From contig JAMPAL010000005.1 of NCBI GenBank assembly GCA_023667245.1, forward strand, positions 1-48,491: a stretch of DNA of 48,491 nt. The letters run 5' to 3'. Source of the stretch: Anaeroplasma bactoclasticum. Its GTDB lineage: Bacteria > Bacillota_I > Bacilli_A > ML615J-28 > CAG-313. The position numbers were made by a program, and so were the translations under genes. This document shows, in pieces, positions 1,657-40,332 of this stretch (its first letter is position 1; every line of letters begins with the position of its first letter). The notes below the pieces were generated by a model. The model was not told the DNA's origin. It made no database searches and saw only the letters and a program-made list of their open reading frames with translations.

Positions 1657-2772
1657 ATGAAAGTATCAATAAATCAAAAAGTGTACCAAATAGAGGATAC
1701 AGATAGTCCCATTTTTTTACTAGATTTTTTGGCTAAGGAAAATATTTTTCCAATCTCTGATGTAGAACTTTTAAAAACATTTGATGATATAAAAGTAGAA
1801 ATGGAATCATGCGATGATTTAGTAAATGCTGATGAGGTTATGTTAAAAGATGGACAAGTTATATATACTTTATCAGATAAGATTGTTGCATATTATAATG
1901 CATTGTGGATTTCTAATTTTTCTTCTATAGATAAAATCGATTTAGATGCAAGTAATTATCATATTTTAATATGTGAACCACACATATATCAAGAATGTTT
2001 CAATGCATATCAAGATAAAGGTTTTCAGGATATAATTAATTTAAAATTTGCGGAAATGATTTATTATCTCGAGGTAAGTCATCAGTTATTACTAGATAAG
2101 TCTAAAAAACTAGATTTAACACATCAAGATCCTATATGGATTGTTAAACATAATCTACTACATTATCCAGCTAATAGAGTATTAAACATAAAATCTCCTG
2201 AAGAAATAGCAGCTATTTTGATCAAAGAATATTATCAAAGAATCCGTCATATTGAAAAACCTATTCATATAACATATATCACCACTTCTCATTTATCCTA
2301 TAAAACAGTAAGGTCTCAAATCTTGTGCACAAATTCTATGATTGACCAAGTCGTATTGATGAATCAATTTGAGGTTGCTGGAAGTGGCTCTTGCTATGAT
2401 GGCGGTATTTCAAAAGAAATTTATATAAAAGATACAGTAGAAATAGATACTTCCTACAATGCTATGATTGTTTTTCAGTTATTTGAACAAATGGGATTTA
2501 AAGCAGAATCTTTTGAAACAAGTATAAAGGATGATATTTTATGGGTTTCTGCTAGATATAAAGAGGTTAGATTTGATGTATGTGTCTGTCCCAAATTTTT
2601 AAGCATAGAACAACTAGATGCACTAACTGATGTTGATTTTGTTTTTATAGCTGATACTTTTCCTCATTTACAATATCAGAAGATGACAGCTTTTTTAGAG
2701 GATTACAATATGAATCATATATATAAGAAATTTTTATTATATCCCGGTTATTCTACTATATGTAGGAGATAA
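1657..2772 (+). CDS. degenerate [FeFe]-hydrogenase-like protein lacking H-cluster ligands
   Basis: 371 residues, soluble, start set by TAGGTG 5 nt upstream. I read it as a distant paralogue of the HydA at 38536-40332. Residues 1-80 follow HydA's N-terminal 2Fe-2S fold, with almost all cysteines gone. Residues ~100-340 follow the H-cluster domain. Anchors are GFQDIINLKF for GFDDVTDVNF, HYPANRVLNIKSPEE for YYPQYLDNLSSCKSPQQ, ILIKEYY for SMIKHYY, IDQVVLMNQFEVA for IDYVLTTREYARL, and SGSCYDGGI for GVIFGATGGV. The four H-cluster cysteines (HydA 314, 370, 514, 518) correspond to non-cysteine positions near residues 163, 209, 331 and 335, and the ferredoxin domains are missing. It cannot be a hydrogenase; a structural, sensor or scaffold role is inference. 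It overlaps the next gene by one base. The homology is read by eye and moderate in certainty; reading frame and operon are secure. Confidence 0.7.
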   Translation: MKVSINQKVYQIEDTDSPIFLLDFLAKENIFPISDVELLKTFDDIKVEMESCDDLVNADEVMLKDGQVIYTLSDKIVAYYNALWISNFSSIDKIDLDASNYHILICEPHIYQECFNAYQDKGFQDIINLKFAEMIYYLEVSHQLLLDKSKKLDLTHQDPIWIVKHNLLHYPANRVLNIKSPEEIAAILIKEYYQRIRHIEKPIHITYITTSHLSYKTVRSQILCTNSMIDQVVLMNQFEVAGSGSCYDGGISKEIYIKDTVEIDTSYNAMIVFQLFEQMGFKAESFETSIKDDILWVSARYKEVRFDVCVCPKFLSIEQLDALTDVDFVFIADTFPHLQYQKMTAFLEDYNMNHIYKKFLLYPGYSTICRR

Positions 2773-4727
2773 TGATGAATATATCTAAGACCTTATTTAA
2801 AAATTTAACAAGATGCAAAAATTTTCCAAGTCTATATGATATATACATGAACCGTTCATTCCATGAAGTACAGGCAATAGATGGAAAGAAACTTGAAAAA
2901 GATCACGCCATTATGCAAGCAATGAGTCAATTTGCACAAACCAATATTGAATCTCATCAAGAGGAAATAATAGAGATGCTCAATGAAATGTTTGACATTG
3001 AAACCGGAGAAGATTTAACAAATATTACAAATCCACAACTAGAGGCATTTCAGACTATTTTTACTGAGGTAGAACGACTAGCTATCTTGCATGTTTCAAA
3101 TGTATTTCAACACCCTATTATAGCTTCAACAAATACATACGAGCAAAAAAAGTATGAATACAGATATGATGGGAATACATTTTATTGTTTCTTAGATGGC
3201 TATTTAGAAGATGAAGAGAAGATTTATATTTTTGAGGTAAAGGCAACGACTAGTAGAAAATATGATGATTTGAAGATGAAAATAAAACAAGAAGAAATTC
3301 CTCTTTTTAAGTCAAATGAAGAAGGAATTTCTACATTTGTAGGTGATCAATTAGTAGGCCAAAAAATAGGAAGTAAGACTATTACACAAGAAATGATAGA
3401 TAAGAAAAAGCAAAAATTATTGAATCGCTATTCAGATTGTGGAAAGTATATATATGATTTGTCTGTAGAACGTCACATTATTGAACAATCTTTGATTCAA
3501 AAACATCTAGAAAAACCCAAATCAATAGCGTATTATTTAGTGGTTTTAAATGCTGAATATCGCTTTAGTGGTCGATATAATAGTCAACAGCAGCCAATTT
3601 ATGATCAAGATGCAAAAGGGAATGCGCTATTTAAAATATATGATTTTAGCGATATCACAAAGCTATATCAAAATCAAATTCAAATAGAACGAGATCAGTT
3701 AATGCATCAATTAACCTATTTAGAAATTCACTCTCATCAATTGGGTGAACACTGTGAATATAAGAAAACTACTGCTTGTAAATTTTGCAAAATTTGTATG
3801 AAAGATGTTTTATGTGAAGGATCTATTTTGGAGTATACAGGTAAGCATTATGCCTTCACAGAAGAACAAGGGGGCAAGAAAAAAATTATACCCGTTTATG
3901 ATTTAATCAATAGAGGATACGCCACAATGGAGCAAGCATATCCCTATATAACAAAACTTGATAATATTGTAGAATATCAAAGTCTGATGAGCCATCAACC
4001 ATATATGGATAAAGAACGAATACGATATGCACTTGCCTCAATTCAGTATCCCATCTATTATTTAGATTTTGAAAGCTATAATTGTCCACTACCACGATAT
4101 AAAGGAGAAAGTCCCTACCAACAATCTTTGTTTCAGTATTCGCTACATATTGAAAAAAGTGAAAATCAGTGCGATTTGATTCAAAATCATCGAGAGTTTT
4201 TGGCACCAGATCATCAAGATCGAAGACTAGAATTGGTAAAACAGCTAATAAAAGATATTGATTTATCAGCAGGTGGTACTGTAATGGTATACAATAAATC
4301 GTTTGAAAAAACTAGATTAAAAGAACTCTCATACATATATCCTCAATACAAGAAAGAATTAGATACGATTAATAATCATATATTTGATTTGTTAGAAGTG
4401 TTAAAAGGAACAACATCACTTTATGAAAAGGTGCTGCCAGAAGGAGTTATGAATGAGTCAAATCAAAAACCGAGCTTTACATATTATCATTATATGATGC
4501 ATGGATCTTTTTCAATTAAGAAGGTTTTACCTTTATTTACGGATTTATCATATCAAGATTTAGAGGTAAAAAATGGTACTGAGGCCATTATTACTTATGG
4601 ATTATTTCCTTATTTTAGTGAGGAAGAATACCAAAATAAATACTTGGCATTGCGAACGTATTGTCGACAAGATACTTGGGCCATGGTATGTATATTAAGA
4701 GGATTGAAAAAAGAAGTGTTAAAATAG
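2772..4727 (+). CDS. DUF2779 family protein: Cas4/RecB-like nuclease plus DEDD-type exonuclease
   Basis: 651 residues. The N-terminal half looks like a PD-(D/E)XK nuclease: D142 in FLDGYL, then E155-x-K157 in IFEVKATT. C15 (LTRC) plus a cluster at C328, C336, C339, C342 and C348 could hold a 4Fe-4S cluster as in Cas4/AddB. The C-terminal half (~425-645) is the DUF2779 RNase-H-like exonuclease fold: D432/E434 in YYLDFES, N508 and E512 in YNKSFEK, D634 in YCRQDTW. The start could be 2772 or 2775; AGGAG at 2763-2767 suits either. It is coupled to the hydrogenase-like gene, and a bidirectional terminator follows. DNA or RNA processing, perhaps repair or defence, is inferred; the substrate is unknown. 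Confidence 0.8.
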   Translation: MMNISKTLFKNLTRCKNFPSLYDIYMNRSFHEVQAIDGKKLEKDHAIMQAMSQFAQTNIESHQEEIIEMLNEMFDIETGEDLTNITNPQLEAFQTIFTEVERLAILHVSNVFQHPIIASTNTYEQKKYEYRYDGNTFYCFLDGYLEDEEKIYIFEVKATTSRKYDDLKMKIKQEEIPLFKSNEEGISTFVGDQLVGQKIGSKTITQEMIDKKKQKLLNRYSDCGKYIYDLSVERHIIEQSLIQKHLEKPKSIAYYLVVLNAEYRFSGRYNSQQQPIYDQDAKGNALFKIYDFSDITKLYQNQIQIERDQLMHQLTYLEIHSHQLGEHCEYKKTTACKFCKICMKDVLCEGSILEYTGKHYAFTEEQGGKKKIIPVYDLINRGYATMEQAYPYITKLDNIVEYQSLMSHQPYMDKERIRYALASIQYPIYYLDFESYNCPLPRYKGESPYQQSLFQYSLHIEKSENQCDLIQNHREFLAPDHQDRRLELVKQLIKDIDLSAGGTVMVYNKSFEKTRLKELSYIYPQYKKELDTINNHIFDLLEVLKGTTSLYEKVLPEGVMNESNQKPSFTYYHYMMHGSFSIKKVLPLFTDLSYQDLEVKNGTEAIITYGLFPYFSEEEYQNKYLALRTYCRQDTWAMVCILRGLKKEVLK

Positions 4728-36729: not shown

Positions 36730-38523
36730 ATGTTAGTACGTGCACAAGTATTAGTATGTGGTGGGACAGGGTGCCTATCATCAAAATCAAAACAAATTAA
36801 AGAAGCATTTGAGGAAAATGTAAAAGCATTGGGTTTAGATAATGAAATTCAAATCATTCAAACAGGATGTTTTGGACTTTGTGAAAAAGGACCTATCGTT
36901 ATCGTATATCCTGATCAAACATTTTATTCACATGTAACTATAGACGATGTTGCTAAAATTTGTTCAGAACACCTACTTAAGGGTCGTATCTATGAACCAA
37001 AAGCGTATAAAGAAGCAACAGAAGAAGAACTTGCTAAAATCAAATCTTTTGGAGAAGTTGGTTTTTATAACAAGCAACTCCGTATCGCTCTTCGTAATTG
37101 CGGTATGATTAATCCATTTGATATTAACGAAGCCATTGGTAGAAATGCATATCAAGCACTTGGAAAATGTTTAACTGAATATACTCCTGAACAAGTGATT
37201 GATATTATGAAAAAAGCAGGTCTTCGTGGTCGTGGAGGTGGAGGATTCCCAACTGGATTAAAATGGGAATTATGTGCTAAAAACCAAGCAGATCAAAAAT
37301 ATGTTATTTGTAATGCCGATGAAGGTGACCCAGGTGCATTTATGGATCGTTCTGTTTTAGAAGGAGATCCACATAGCGTAATTGAAGCTATGGCAATTGC
37401 AGGATATGCAATTGGTGCTACAATGGGTTATGTATATATTCGTGCTGAATATCCTGTTGCAGTAGAAAGATTACAATATGCAATTGAGCAAGCTAGAGAA
37501 TATGGATTGCTTGGCAAGGATATTTTTGGTAGTGGATTCGATTTTGATATTGATATTCGCCTAGGTGCTGGTGCCTTTGTTTGTGGTGAAGAAACTGCTT
37601 TGATAGCTTCTATTGAAGGTGAACGTGGTATGCCTCGTAATAAACCACCTTTCCCTGCACAAAAAGGATTATGGGGAAAACCATCTATTATCAATAATGT
37701 TGAAACACTAGCAAATGTTCCAGTGATTATCTTAAATGGTTGGGAATGGTTCTCCAGTATTGGTACTGAAAAATCAAAAGGAACCAAAGTATTTGCTTTA
37801 GGTGGAAAAATTAAAAATACAGGCTTAGTAGAAATTCCAATGGGAACAACCCTTAGAGAAGTCATTTATGATATCGGCGGTGGGTGCCCTAATGGTAAGG
37901 CTTTTAAAGCTGTTCAAACAGGTGGACCTTCTGGTGGATGCTTAACTGCAAAACACTTAGATACACCAATTGATTATGATAATTTGATTGCTCTTGGATC
38001 TATGATGGGATCTGGTGGTATGATTGTTATGGATGAAAATAACTGTATGGTTGACGTTGCTCGTTTCTTCTTAGATTTTACAGTTGATGAATCTTGTGGT
38101 AAATGTACACCATGTCGTGAAGGTACAAAGAGAATGCTTGAAATTTTAAAGAAAATTACCAAAGGTGAAGGTACAATGGAAGATTTAACTACACTTGAAA
38201 ATCTTGCATTAATGATTAAAGATGCCTCACTTTGTGGTCTTGGACAAAGTGCACCAAACCCAGTACTTTCTACATTAGCCAATTTCCGTGATGAATATAT
38301 GGCACACGTAGTAGATAAGAAATGTCCTGCTGGTGTATGTAAACCATTACTTACATTTGTGGTTACCGATCAATGTATTGGTTGTACAAAGTGTAAGAGA
38401 AATTGTCCTGCCGATGCCATTAGTGGAGAACTTAGACAACAACACTTTATTGATCCTGCAAAATGTATCAAATGTGGTAGTTGTGTAAAAGGTTGCCCTA
38501 AAAATGCAATCGTTGTTCAATAG
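36730..38523 (+). CDS. NuoF-like FMN/NADH-binding subunit of the hydrogenase (HydB/HndC type)
   Basis: 597 residues. The N-terminal thioredoxin-like 2Fe-2S domain has C10, C15, C47 and C51. The FMN/NADH domain has RGRGGGGFPTG (~168-178), NADEGDPGAF and GAGAFVCGEETAL. The 4Fe-4S site is CGKCTPCREG (C~456, 459, 462) plus C~501. Two C-terminal ferredoxin clusters have CIGCTKCKRNCP and CIKCGSCVKGCP. This is the flavin subunit proposed to bifurcate electrons between NADH and ferredoxin. It is 12 bp before hydA. Confidence 0.96.
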   Translation: MLVRAQVLVCGGTGCLSSKSKQIKEAFEENVKALGLDNEIQIIQTGCFGLCEKGPIVIVYPDQTFYSHVTIDDVAKICSEHLLKGRIYEPKAYKEATEEELAKIKSFGEVGFYNKQLRIALRNCGMINPFDINEAIGRNAYQALGKCLTEYTPEQVIDIMKKAGLRGRGGGGFPTGLKWELCAKNQADQKYVICNADEGDPGAFMDRSVLEGDPHSVIEAMAIAGYAIGATMGYVYIRAEYPVAVERLQYAIEQAREYGLLGKDIFGSGFDFDIDIRLGAGAFVCGEETALIASIEGERGMPRNKPPFPAQKGLWGKPSIINNVETLANVPVIILNGWEWFSSIGTEKSKGTKVFALGGKIKNTGLVEIPMGTTLREVIYDIGGGCPNGKAFKAVQTGGPSGGCLTAKHLDTPIDYDNLIALGSMMGSGGMIVMDENNCMVDVARFFLDFTVDESCGKCTPCREGTKRMLEILKKITKGEGTMEDLTTLENLALMIKDASLCGLGQSAPNPVLSTLANFRDEYMAHVVDKKCPAGVCKPLLTFVVTDQCIGCTKCKRNCPADAISGELRQQHFIDPAKCIKCGSCVKGCPKNAIVVQ

Positions 38524-38535
38524 GAGGAAAGAACT

Positions 38536-40332
38536 ATGGAAAAATTAGTAACAATAACAATTAACTCAAAAACAGTAACCGTTCCTGCTAATTATACAAT
38601 TATGCAAGCAGCTGATTCAGTAGGTATTGATATTCCTCGTCTTTGCTTTTTAAAAGACATCAACGAAAATGCATCTTGCCGTGTGTGTGTAGTTGAAATT
38701 GTGGGTATGCGTTCGCTTAAAAACTCTTGTTCTGTTGAAGTAGGTTCTATTTTAAATCGTGAAGGAACAGCAACGATTCTTACCAACTCTAAGCGTGTAA
38801 GAACTGCCGTTCGTCAAACATTAGAATTGATTGCAGCAAACCATCGTTTTGATTGTTGGAAATGTCCAAGAGAACATAATTGTGAATTATTGGCTCTAAT
38901 GAGAAGATTTTCTATCAATAATGAAATGGCTGAGTCTGGTCAATTTGCCAAGAAATTACCTATCATCAATGAAAGTGACGCTATTGTTTTTGATTCATCT
39001 AAATGCGTACTTTGCGGTCGTTGTATTGGGGCATGTGAAAAACTTTCTGGTACAGGTGTATTGAATTTTAACCAAAGAGGATTTGTTACTTGTGTAGGTA
39101 GCGCATTAAATCATGATATTGCTGATGCGGGTTGTATTTATTGCGGTAAATGTATTCAAGCTTGTCCAACAGGTGCTATTCGTGAAAAAGAGCAAATTGA
39201 TTTTGTGGAAGAAGAATTAACCAATCATGAAAATTATCTAGTGGCTACATTTGCACCAGCTGTTCGTGCTGCTATTGGTGAAGAATTTGGTAACCCTATT
39301 GGAACCAACTGCGAAGGAAAATTGTATGCATCTTTGCATGAACTTGGTTTTGATGATGTAACTGATGTTAATTTTGGTGCCGATTTAACTATTATGGAAG
39401 AAGGAACAGAATTTATTGGAAGATTAACAAAAGCATTAAATGGCGAAAAAGTGGCATTCCCAATGATTACAAGTTGTTCACCTGGTTGGATTCGTTATAT
39501 CGAACAATACTATCCACAATACTTAGATAATCTTTCAAGTTGCAAATCACCTCAACAAATGCAAGGTTCAATGATTAAGCATTACTATGCAAAACAACTT
39601 GGTGTTGATCCTGCTAAAATTAAAGTAGTATCTATTATGCCTTGTATTGCTAAAAAATATGAAGCAAATCGTCCTGAAATGGAAAATGACGGATTAAGAG
39701 ATATTGATTATGTTCTTACAACAAGAGAATATGCACGTCTTGTTAAACGTCAAGGTATTGATTTTAATGCATTAGAAGATTATACACCAACAAGTCCACT
39801 TGCAAAGTATACTGGTGCTGGTGTTATCTTTGGTGCAACAGGTGGTGTAATGGAAGCAGCACTTCGCACAGTTGCTCATGTATTAGACCCTGAAAATGAG
39901 GATAAACTTGATTTTACAGTAGTTCGTGGTGTAGAAAATGGTATCAAAGAAGCAACCTTAACGATTGCTGGTCATGAAGTCAATGTTGCTGTAGTTCATG
40001 GTGCTGTGAATATTCCTGAATTGTTCAAACGCATTGAATCTGGAAAACAATATCATTTTGTTGAAGTGATGGCATGTACTGGTGGATGTATCAATGGTGG
40101 TGGTCAACCTATCGTAAATGCAAAAGTACAAGAATGTACAGATGTAAGAGCGCTTCGTGCAAGTGTACTTTATCAAATTGATAAGGATGCTCCACTTCAT
40201 AAATCTCATGAAAATGAAGAAGTAATGCGTGCCTATAAGGAATTTTTAGGAGAACCTAATGGTCACCTTGCTCACAAATTACTTCATACTACATATAATG
40301 CAAAAAAGGCATTTTCAAAAGAAAATAAATAA
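38536..40332 (+). CDS. hydA: [FeFe] hydrogenase catalytic subunit HydA (NADH/ferredoxin-linked, group A3 type)
   Basis: 598 residues. 2Fe-2S domain (C37, C48, C51, C65), His/Cys 4Fe-4S domain (C107, C110, C116), two ferredoxin clusters (C157-C167, C200-C210). The H-cluster domain has C314 (TSCSPGW), C370 (MPCIAKK), and C514 with C518 (MACTGGCINGGG). All ligands are intact, so it should reduce protons or oxidise H2 once matured. HydE, HydF and HydG are not in the window. It ends the operon at a strong terminator. Codon use suggests high expression. Confidence 0.97.
   Translation: MEKLVTITINSKTVTVPANYTIMQAADSVGIDIPRLCFLKDINENASCRVCVVEIVGMRSLKNSCSVEVGSILNREGTATILTNSKRVRTAVRQTLELIAANHRFDCWKCPREHNCELLALMRRFSINNEMAESGQFAKKLPIINESDAIVFDSSKCVLCGRCIGACEKLSGTGVLNFNQRGFVTCVGSALNHDIADAGCIYCGKCIQACPTGAIREKEQIDFVEEELTNHENYLVATFAPAVRAAIGEEFGNPIGTNCEGKLYASLHELGFDDVTDVNFGADLTIMEEGTEFIGRLTKALNGEKVAFPMITSCSPGWIRYIEQYYPQYLDNLSSCKSPQQMQGSMIKHYYAKQLGVDPAKIKVVSIMPCIAKKYEANRPEMENDGLRDIDYVLTTREYARLVKRQGIDFNALEDYTPTSPLAKYTGAGVIFGATGGVMEAALRTVAHVLDPENEDKLDFTVVRGVENGIKEATLTIAGHEVNVAVVHGAVNIPELFKRIESGKQYHFVEVMACTGGCINGGGQPIVNAKVQECTDVRALRASVLYQIDKDAPLHKSHENEEVMRAYKEFLGEPNGHLAHKLLHTTYNAKKAFSKENK

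Follow-up and report, generated by a model that had tools for sequence, protein, structure and literature searches.

A cluster-free paralogue of HydA conserved in one bacterial family, and its putative link to the DUF2779 nuclease

INTRODUCTION

What becomes of a hydrogenase fold once its metal ligands are lost, and why would a cell keep such a gene? This question is raised by a locus of Anaeroplasma bactoclasticum that lies in a window of 48,491 nt (the window being the whole stretch of DNA analysed here), where a protein that we call P0001 had been singled out from the DNA letters as a relative of HydA from which every H-cluster cysteine is missing. We refer to that reading as the original prediction. 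To our knowledge, every relative of the H-cluster domain (H-domain) that is known or was found in the literature searched keeps iron-sulphur ligands, and we asked whether P0001 is indeed a HydA paralogue, whether it is kept by selection, and what it may do.

RESULTS

The locus and the hydrogenase genes of the genome

The ORF of P0001 is intact, with an ATG start codon and no internal stop codons (Table 1). The gene order is a cluster of eleven tRNAs at 86-1064, the P0001 gene, the DUF2779 gene and then rimO on the opposite strand. Each of the five genomes available for the genus of the window (g1) has an orthologue of P0001, with identities of 74% and 32–36%. Counting the relatives in g2 (G005 and G013) and g6 (G009), eight genomes in three genera, metagenome-assembled genomes included, are known to carry a member of the cluster-free family, and the gene is intact in all of them.

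Table 1. Features of the P0001 locus and of the true hydrogenase genes (window positions)
Feature	Position	Strand	Basis
Cluster-free HydA paralogue P0001, 371 aa	1657..2772	+	ORF; profile homology to HydA; orthologues in 5/5 genus genomes
N-terminal 2Fe-2S-type (Fer2_4-like) domain without cluster cysteines, residues 1-80	1657..1896	+	hhalign to HydA N-terminus; PDB hydrogenase 1 match
Pseudo-H-domain, N-terminal half, residues 100-234	1954..2358	+	BLASTP and hhalign; spans the HydA C314 and C370 columns and is Cys-free there
Pseudo-H-domain, C-terminal half, residues 235-340, diverged, no CX3C	2359..2676	+	Colinear position only; cysteine positions
C-terminal tail, residues 341-371, resembling the HydA small-subunit tail	2677..2769	+	Colinear hhalign match
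AGGAGA, likely ribosome-binding site of the DUF2779 gene, within the end of the P0001 gene	2764..2769	+	Sequence
DUF2779/UU173-like protein, 651 aa, PD-(D/E)XK nuclease and DEDD-type 3'-5' exonuclease	2772..4727	+	PF11074, E = 9e-39
HydB/NuoF-like subunit upstream of HydA	36730..38523	+	Complex1_51K and NADH_4Fe-4S
True HydA, group A6-like [FeFe] hydrogenase	38536..40332	+	PF02906, 312 bits

On the same contig, 34 kb downstream of P0001, are the true HydA and the NuoF-like subunit that accompanies it. This HydA scores 757.9 bits against NCBIfam NF040763, slightly below the cut-off of 765, and it is above the cut-off of TIGR02512. A true HydA is kept in 5/5 genomes of g1, and hence the P0001 copy is not the hydrogenase.

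Further Fe_hyd_lg_C proteins were seen in the course of the searches. On another contig of the same genome (G000:C44:55444-59394; L002 and L003), two adjacent ones, whose ligand cysteine motifs were recognised by eye, are accompanied by a phosphatase-like gene, and the pair resembles a HydS-type sensor pair. In G044, a 532-aa HydA-like protein (L082:4596-6194, minus strand; PF02906, 86 bits) keeps the 2Fe-2S, His/Cys and 4Fe-4S motifs and has 0/4 H-cluster cysteines; it stands in an operon with NuoE, NuoF and RnfC-like genes and is a separate case of a cluster-free H-domain, probably in an electron-transfer subunit. In its 550-aa HydA-like neighbour (L082:2599-4251, minus strand), three of the four H-cluster cysteines are present and the first is replaced by Asp (TSDSP instead of TSCSP).

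Homology of P0001 to HydA

Single-sequence searches of Pfam, NCBIfam and PDB sequences with P0001 were uninformative, the protein alone staying below the gathering score of Fe_hyd_lg_C (PF02906; 15.9 versus 22.1 bits, E = 0.011). BLASTP against the HydA of the window gave E = 2e-5 over residues 106–195, a stretch that includes the anchor quoted in the original prediction. A profile of P0001 built from the five g1 species was compared by hhalign with a profile of 57 true HydAs, and residues 2–81 matched the 2Fe-2S-type domain (E = 7.2e-12), residues 117–234 matched the N-terminal half of the H-domain (E = 2.3e-5), and residues 350–366 matched the C-terminal tail, weakly when taken alone but colinearly. 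All three matches occur in the same order along both proteins. The stretch at ∼235–345 gave no significant match to HydA on its own, being too diverged to align, and residues 235–345 are placed in the H-domain by position alone. When the H-domains of the family were pooled, the match to HydA reached E = 2.3e-7.

Shuffling of the profile columns gave maximal scores of 23.8 in the first test, compared with 42.9 for the real H-domain alignment, and of 21.5 in the pooled test, compared with 58.1; overall, real H-domain alignments scored 43–61 against shuffled maxima of 21.5–23.8, and chance similarity to HydA was thereby ruled out. Searched against PDB sequences, the five-species profile found [FeFe] hydrogenase 1 as the top match (E = 1.3e-7, residues 2–80) with a weak colinear second segment at residues 119–220, and other 2Fe-2S chains had E values of at least 0.1. 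In other genera, the same profile picked up true HydAs through their N-terminal and H-domain segments, with best E values of 3.7e-7 at the level of the order and 1.7e-10 at that of the class. An AlphaFold model of P0001, made from only two sequences, had a mean pLDDT of 36.8, and Foldseek returned no match to it at E ≤ 0.001.

On these profile comparisons, the homology between P0001 and HydA is secure. P0001 is accordingly described here, at the level of sequence, as a hydA paralogue that keeps the domain order of group A HydA (PF02906 and PF02256), namely the 2Fe-2S-type domain, the H-domain and the C-terminal tail, and the original prediction that it follows HydA along both the 2Fe-2S-like fold and the H-domain holds, with the middle of the C-terminal half unaligned by itself. 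The tail (IYKKFLLYPG in P0001 and AYKEFLGEPN in HydA) is the best-conserved stretch of P0001 in g1, at 51% identity versus 31–39% elsewhere, the variable linker excepted.

Loss of the metal ligands

It had also been predicted that the four ligand positions are not cysteine, and this was borne out: aligned jointly with true HydAs, 0/8 family members have cysteine in the columns of HydA C314, C370, C514 and C518, the emptiness of the last two columns resting on the absence of a CX3C motif together with colinearity. None of the eight thus has the four H-cluster cysteines of a catalytic HydA (in TSCxP, MPCxxKK and CxGGC). P0001 has eight cysteines, none of them in a CX2-4C motif; compared with group A HydA it lacks the ligand cysteines of both the H-cluster and the 2Fe-2S cluster, and the His/Cys domain and both 4Fe-4S ferredoxin motifs are deleted. 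C106 and C114 are invariant in g1, are absent in g2 and g6, and are not at ligand positions. An electron relay made of [4Fe-4S] ferredoxin motifs and 2Fe-2S cysteines is absent in g1 and g6, and only its [4Fe-4S] part is found in g2. The predicted loss of the ferredoxin domains is therefore correct for the window protein but not for the whole family, as g2 keeps two [4Fe-4S] motifs. Because H-cluster ligands and an electron relay are both missing, P0001 would be unable to handle H2 or electrons in g1; as far as its sequence tells, the window protein cannot activate H2.

One family in three genera

The g6 relative (406 aa, L055:1315-2535) matches HydA over 282 columns (E = 1.1e-9) and passes Fe_hyd_lg_C with 29.1 versus 22.1 bits, and it has only four cysteines, none in a ligand column. 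Its gene site is probably the same as that of the window, since the upstream antisense ORFs resemble, by eye, those over the tRNA cluster of the window. In g2, the gene lies directly upstream of DUF2779 and encodes two [4Fe-4S] motifs, which stand in place of the N-terminal 2Fe-2S-type domain, followed by a ligand-free pseudo-H-domain and the same tail. The H-domains of g1 and g2 match each other over 221 columns (E = 3e-10), a far closer match than either gives with the H-domain of HydA, and g1 and g6 match over their full length with E = 8e-9. Hence, by profile similarity, the proteins of g1, g2 and g6 are a single family rather than products of repeated decay, and they are in differing states of domain loss across the three genera. 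All three share the pseudo-H-domain and the tail and nothing else; the N-terminal module varies, being an empty 2Fe-2S-type domain in g1 and g6 and two [4Fe-4S] motifs in g2.

A profile search of g3, g4, g5 and the sister family found no member, and no full-length member was found outside the family among 395 genomes of the class and 295 of the phylum, searches that diverged members may escape. The other matches in the class and phylum were rejected as true HydA or other 2Fe-2S proteins, on inspection or by frame length. The genes upstream of DUF2779 in g3, g4 and g5 were considered as degenerate HydA and rejected as well, as their sequences read as a lipoprotein, an ABC-transporter permease and an unrelated secreted protein.

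Selection on the P0001 gene

Comparison of the P0001 gene with its 74% orthologue gave a dN/dS of 0.18 (dN 0.154, dS 0.86), and the comparison genes DUF2779 and RimO gave 0.10 each; P0001 thus evolves faster than the adjoining DUF2779 nuclease. Because dN/dS is 0.18, the gene is under purifying selection, and on this value, together with the conservation of the gene, pseudogene status was rejected. These substitution patterns indicate that selection maintains a cluster-free paralogue in one bacterial family.

Linkage to the DUF2779 gene

In the window the stop codon of P0001 overlaps the start codon of DUF2779 (TAATG); the overlap is one or four bases long in the other four g1 species, and the g2 genes abut or are separated by 2 nt. 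In two of the three genera, therefore, the paralogue gene directly precedes and usually overlaps the DUF2779 gene. The g6 arrangement differs: 3.7 kb and two ABC-transporter genes separate the paralogue gene from DUF2779. DUF2779 occurs without a partner gene in g3–g5 and in the sister family. Conserved cysteine loss and linkage to DUF2779, the two traits for which the original prediction proposed to survey homologues, are both supported by the relatives, the profiles and the selection analysis.

In the sister family, DUF2779 lies 1.7–6.6 kb downstream of the true hydA on the same strand in 9/9 contigs that hold both genes. Genes for a CRP-like regulator and an ABC transporter are often found between hydA and DUF2779 there (f2, L101–L109). 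In the DUF2779 tree, g1 and g2 group together (100/99) inside the monophyletic family.

The DUF2779/UU173 fold combines a DUF83-like PD-(D/E)XK nuclease with an RNase H-like 3'-5' exonuclease (PMC3985635). The function of this family (PF11074) is a predicted one, and the window member has an upstream partner gene that most of its relatives lack. Among 29 homologues C15, C328, C336, C342, D142/E155/K157 and D432/E434 are invariant, and the four cysteines are candidates for an Fe-S site; their layout presumably resembles the Fe-S site of Cas4/AddB nucleases. AlphaFold modelling of the DUF2779 protein from a two-sequence alignment only gave a pLDDT of 34.5.

DISCUSSION

The gene overlap and the linkage point to P0001 as a partner of DUF2779, and we judge it most likely, if tentatively, that its pseudo-H-domain serves as a protein-binding subunit of the DUF2779 nuclease. 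P0001 would be a cofactor-free structural or regulatory subunit, made together with the nuclease by translational coupling, and its working core would be the pseudo-H-domain and the tail because these are the only parts common to all three genera. Against this reading, the nuclease does not generally need a partner, as the partnerless proteins of g3–g5 and the sister family indicate, the two genes are apart in g6, and the partner evolves faster than the nuclease. A local duplication of hydA beside DUF2779 in an ancestor of the family is suggested because hydA of the sister family still sits a few kilobases upstream of DUF2779; afterwards, different modules may have been lost in different genera, and the gene may have been lost or relocated in others. 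The fuller account, in which this duplication led to the capture of an [FeFe]-hydrogenase fold by an Fe-S-type nuclease/exonuclease, as a subunit free of any cofactor, is possible but more doubtful; it would mirror in bacteria the eukaryotic route from a hydrogenase to Nar1, but with all metal sites erased.

P0001 might instead use its 2Fe-2S-type domain and its tail to dock on HydB/HydC, and so regulate, block or help to assemble the true HydABC complex, which would fit the retention of these two parts, the best conserved ones, and the presence of a true HydA in 5/5 genomes and on the same contig (36730-40332); we nevertheless consider this unlikely, as g2 keeps the gene though the N-terminal domain is wholly lost, and as the close linkage in g1 and g2 is to DUF2779 and not to hydABC. 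The true HydA fold encloses a deep pocket, and a redox or metabolite sensor that binds a small molecule in the emptied H-cluster pocket and signals to the DUF2779 nuclease or another partner could draw on the invariant C106 and C114 of g1 or on the [4Fe-4S] motifs of g2, which could respond to redox state. The original prediction had named a metabolite sensor, beside a scaffold, as a role that P0001 may have taken on. Such a sensor is quite improbable, since no conserved pocket residues were identified, C106 and C114 do not extend to g2 and g6, and P0001 itself contains no output domain. Nar1/CIAO3 is a hydrogenase-derived carrier in the maturation of cytosolic and nuclear Fe-S proteins, and by analogy P0001 could be a metallochaperone-like helper for a DUF2779 Fe-S cluster, as the invariant DUF2779 cysteines with their presumed Cas4/AddB-like layout and the two [4Fe-4S] motifs of g2 would allow. 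Nar1, for its part, has put a hydrogenase fold to other use with no H-cluster (PMC12991071). The helper role is nonetheless less probable again: the g1 and g6 proteins are without any cluster-binding motif, so that they could not carry a cluster the way Nar1 does, and partnerless DUF2779 proteins have the same cysteines.

Two readings would deprive P0001 of any such role. High divergence, progressive domain loss and low GC (0.279 for the gene versus 0.323 for the window) are what a decaying, functionless relic of hydA would have, but a relic is very improbable for a gene that is intact in eight genomes of three genera, free of stops, at the dN/dS found here, and with a conserved tail and coupling. 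That P0001 is unrelated to HydA, owing its likeness to chance or to generic 2Fe-2S proteins such as NuoG, would agree with the sub-threshold Pfam match and with the unalignable middle of the C-terminal half; it is scarcely tenable given three colinear matches that score far above their shuffles, a g6 relative that passes Fe_hyd_lg_C, and a PDB search led by hydrogenase 1 rather than by other 2Fe-2S chains.

Among known systems, Nar1 is the closest in spirit to the cluster-free family, although the g1 and g6 proteins have none of its cysteines: P0001 has no CX2-4C motif and no cysteine at the H-domain columns, whereas Nar1/CIAO3 is defined by eight conserved cysteines that hold two Fe-S clusters. 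The CIA targeting complex, which Nar1/CIAO3 binds, belongs to a eukaryotic system, and the genome of the window is bacterial. Nar1 (CIAO3, IOP1) gave the hydrogenase scaffold a new protein-protein role and kept eight Fe-S cysteines (PMC12991071). Sensory hydrogenases of the HydS type (groups C and D) retain the H-cluster and are linked to an additional signalling domain (PMC13104023); like the cluster-free family they use an H-domain outside H2 turnover, but neither H-cluster ligands nor a PAS or other output domain was found in P0001. HydA homologues without an H-cluster act in electron transfer in NiFe-HydABCSL and related Bfu bifurcating enzymes (PMC9304861), and BfuA, the HydA of NiFe-HydABCSL and StnC are all HydA or NuoG homologues of this type (PMC9304861, PMC10482914). 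These proteins keep the N-terminal Fe-S relay for electron transfer. A BfuA/NuoG-like subunit has the N-terminal clusters and no H-domain, whereas g1 shows the reverse, with the relay gone and a recognisable H-domain left. The original prediction that no cluster-free member has been described thus stands for the H-domain, for which a published case without any ligand was not found in the literature searched (most subscription papers lay outside its reach), but not for HydA homologues at large, as those without an H-cluster are known.

A selected, cluster-free H-domain means that the fold of a complex metalloenzyme can be retained for another purpose after its cofactor is lost. If the nuclease link is confirmed, the family would connect hydrogen metabolism to nucleic-acid processing by a route open to testing, and it would be a natural setting in which to ask what holds the H-domain fold together without the cluster. 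It seems that this gut bacterium and the species closest to it have found a further use for an ancient metal-enzyme fold after the metal was gone.
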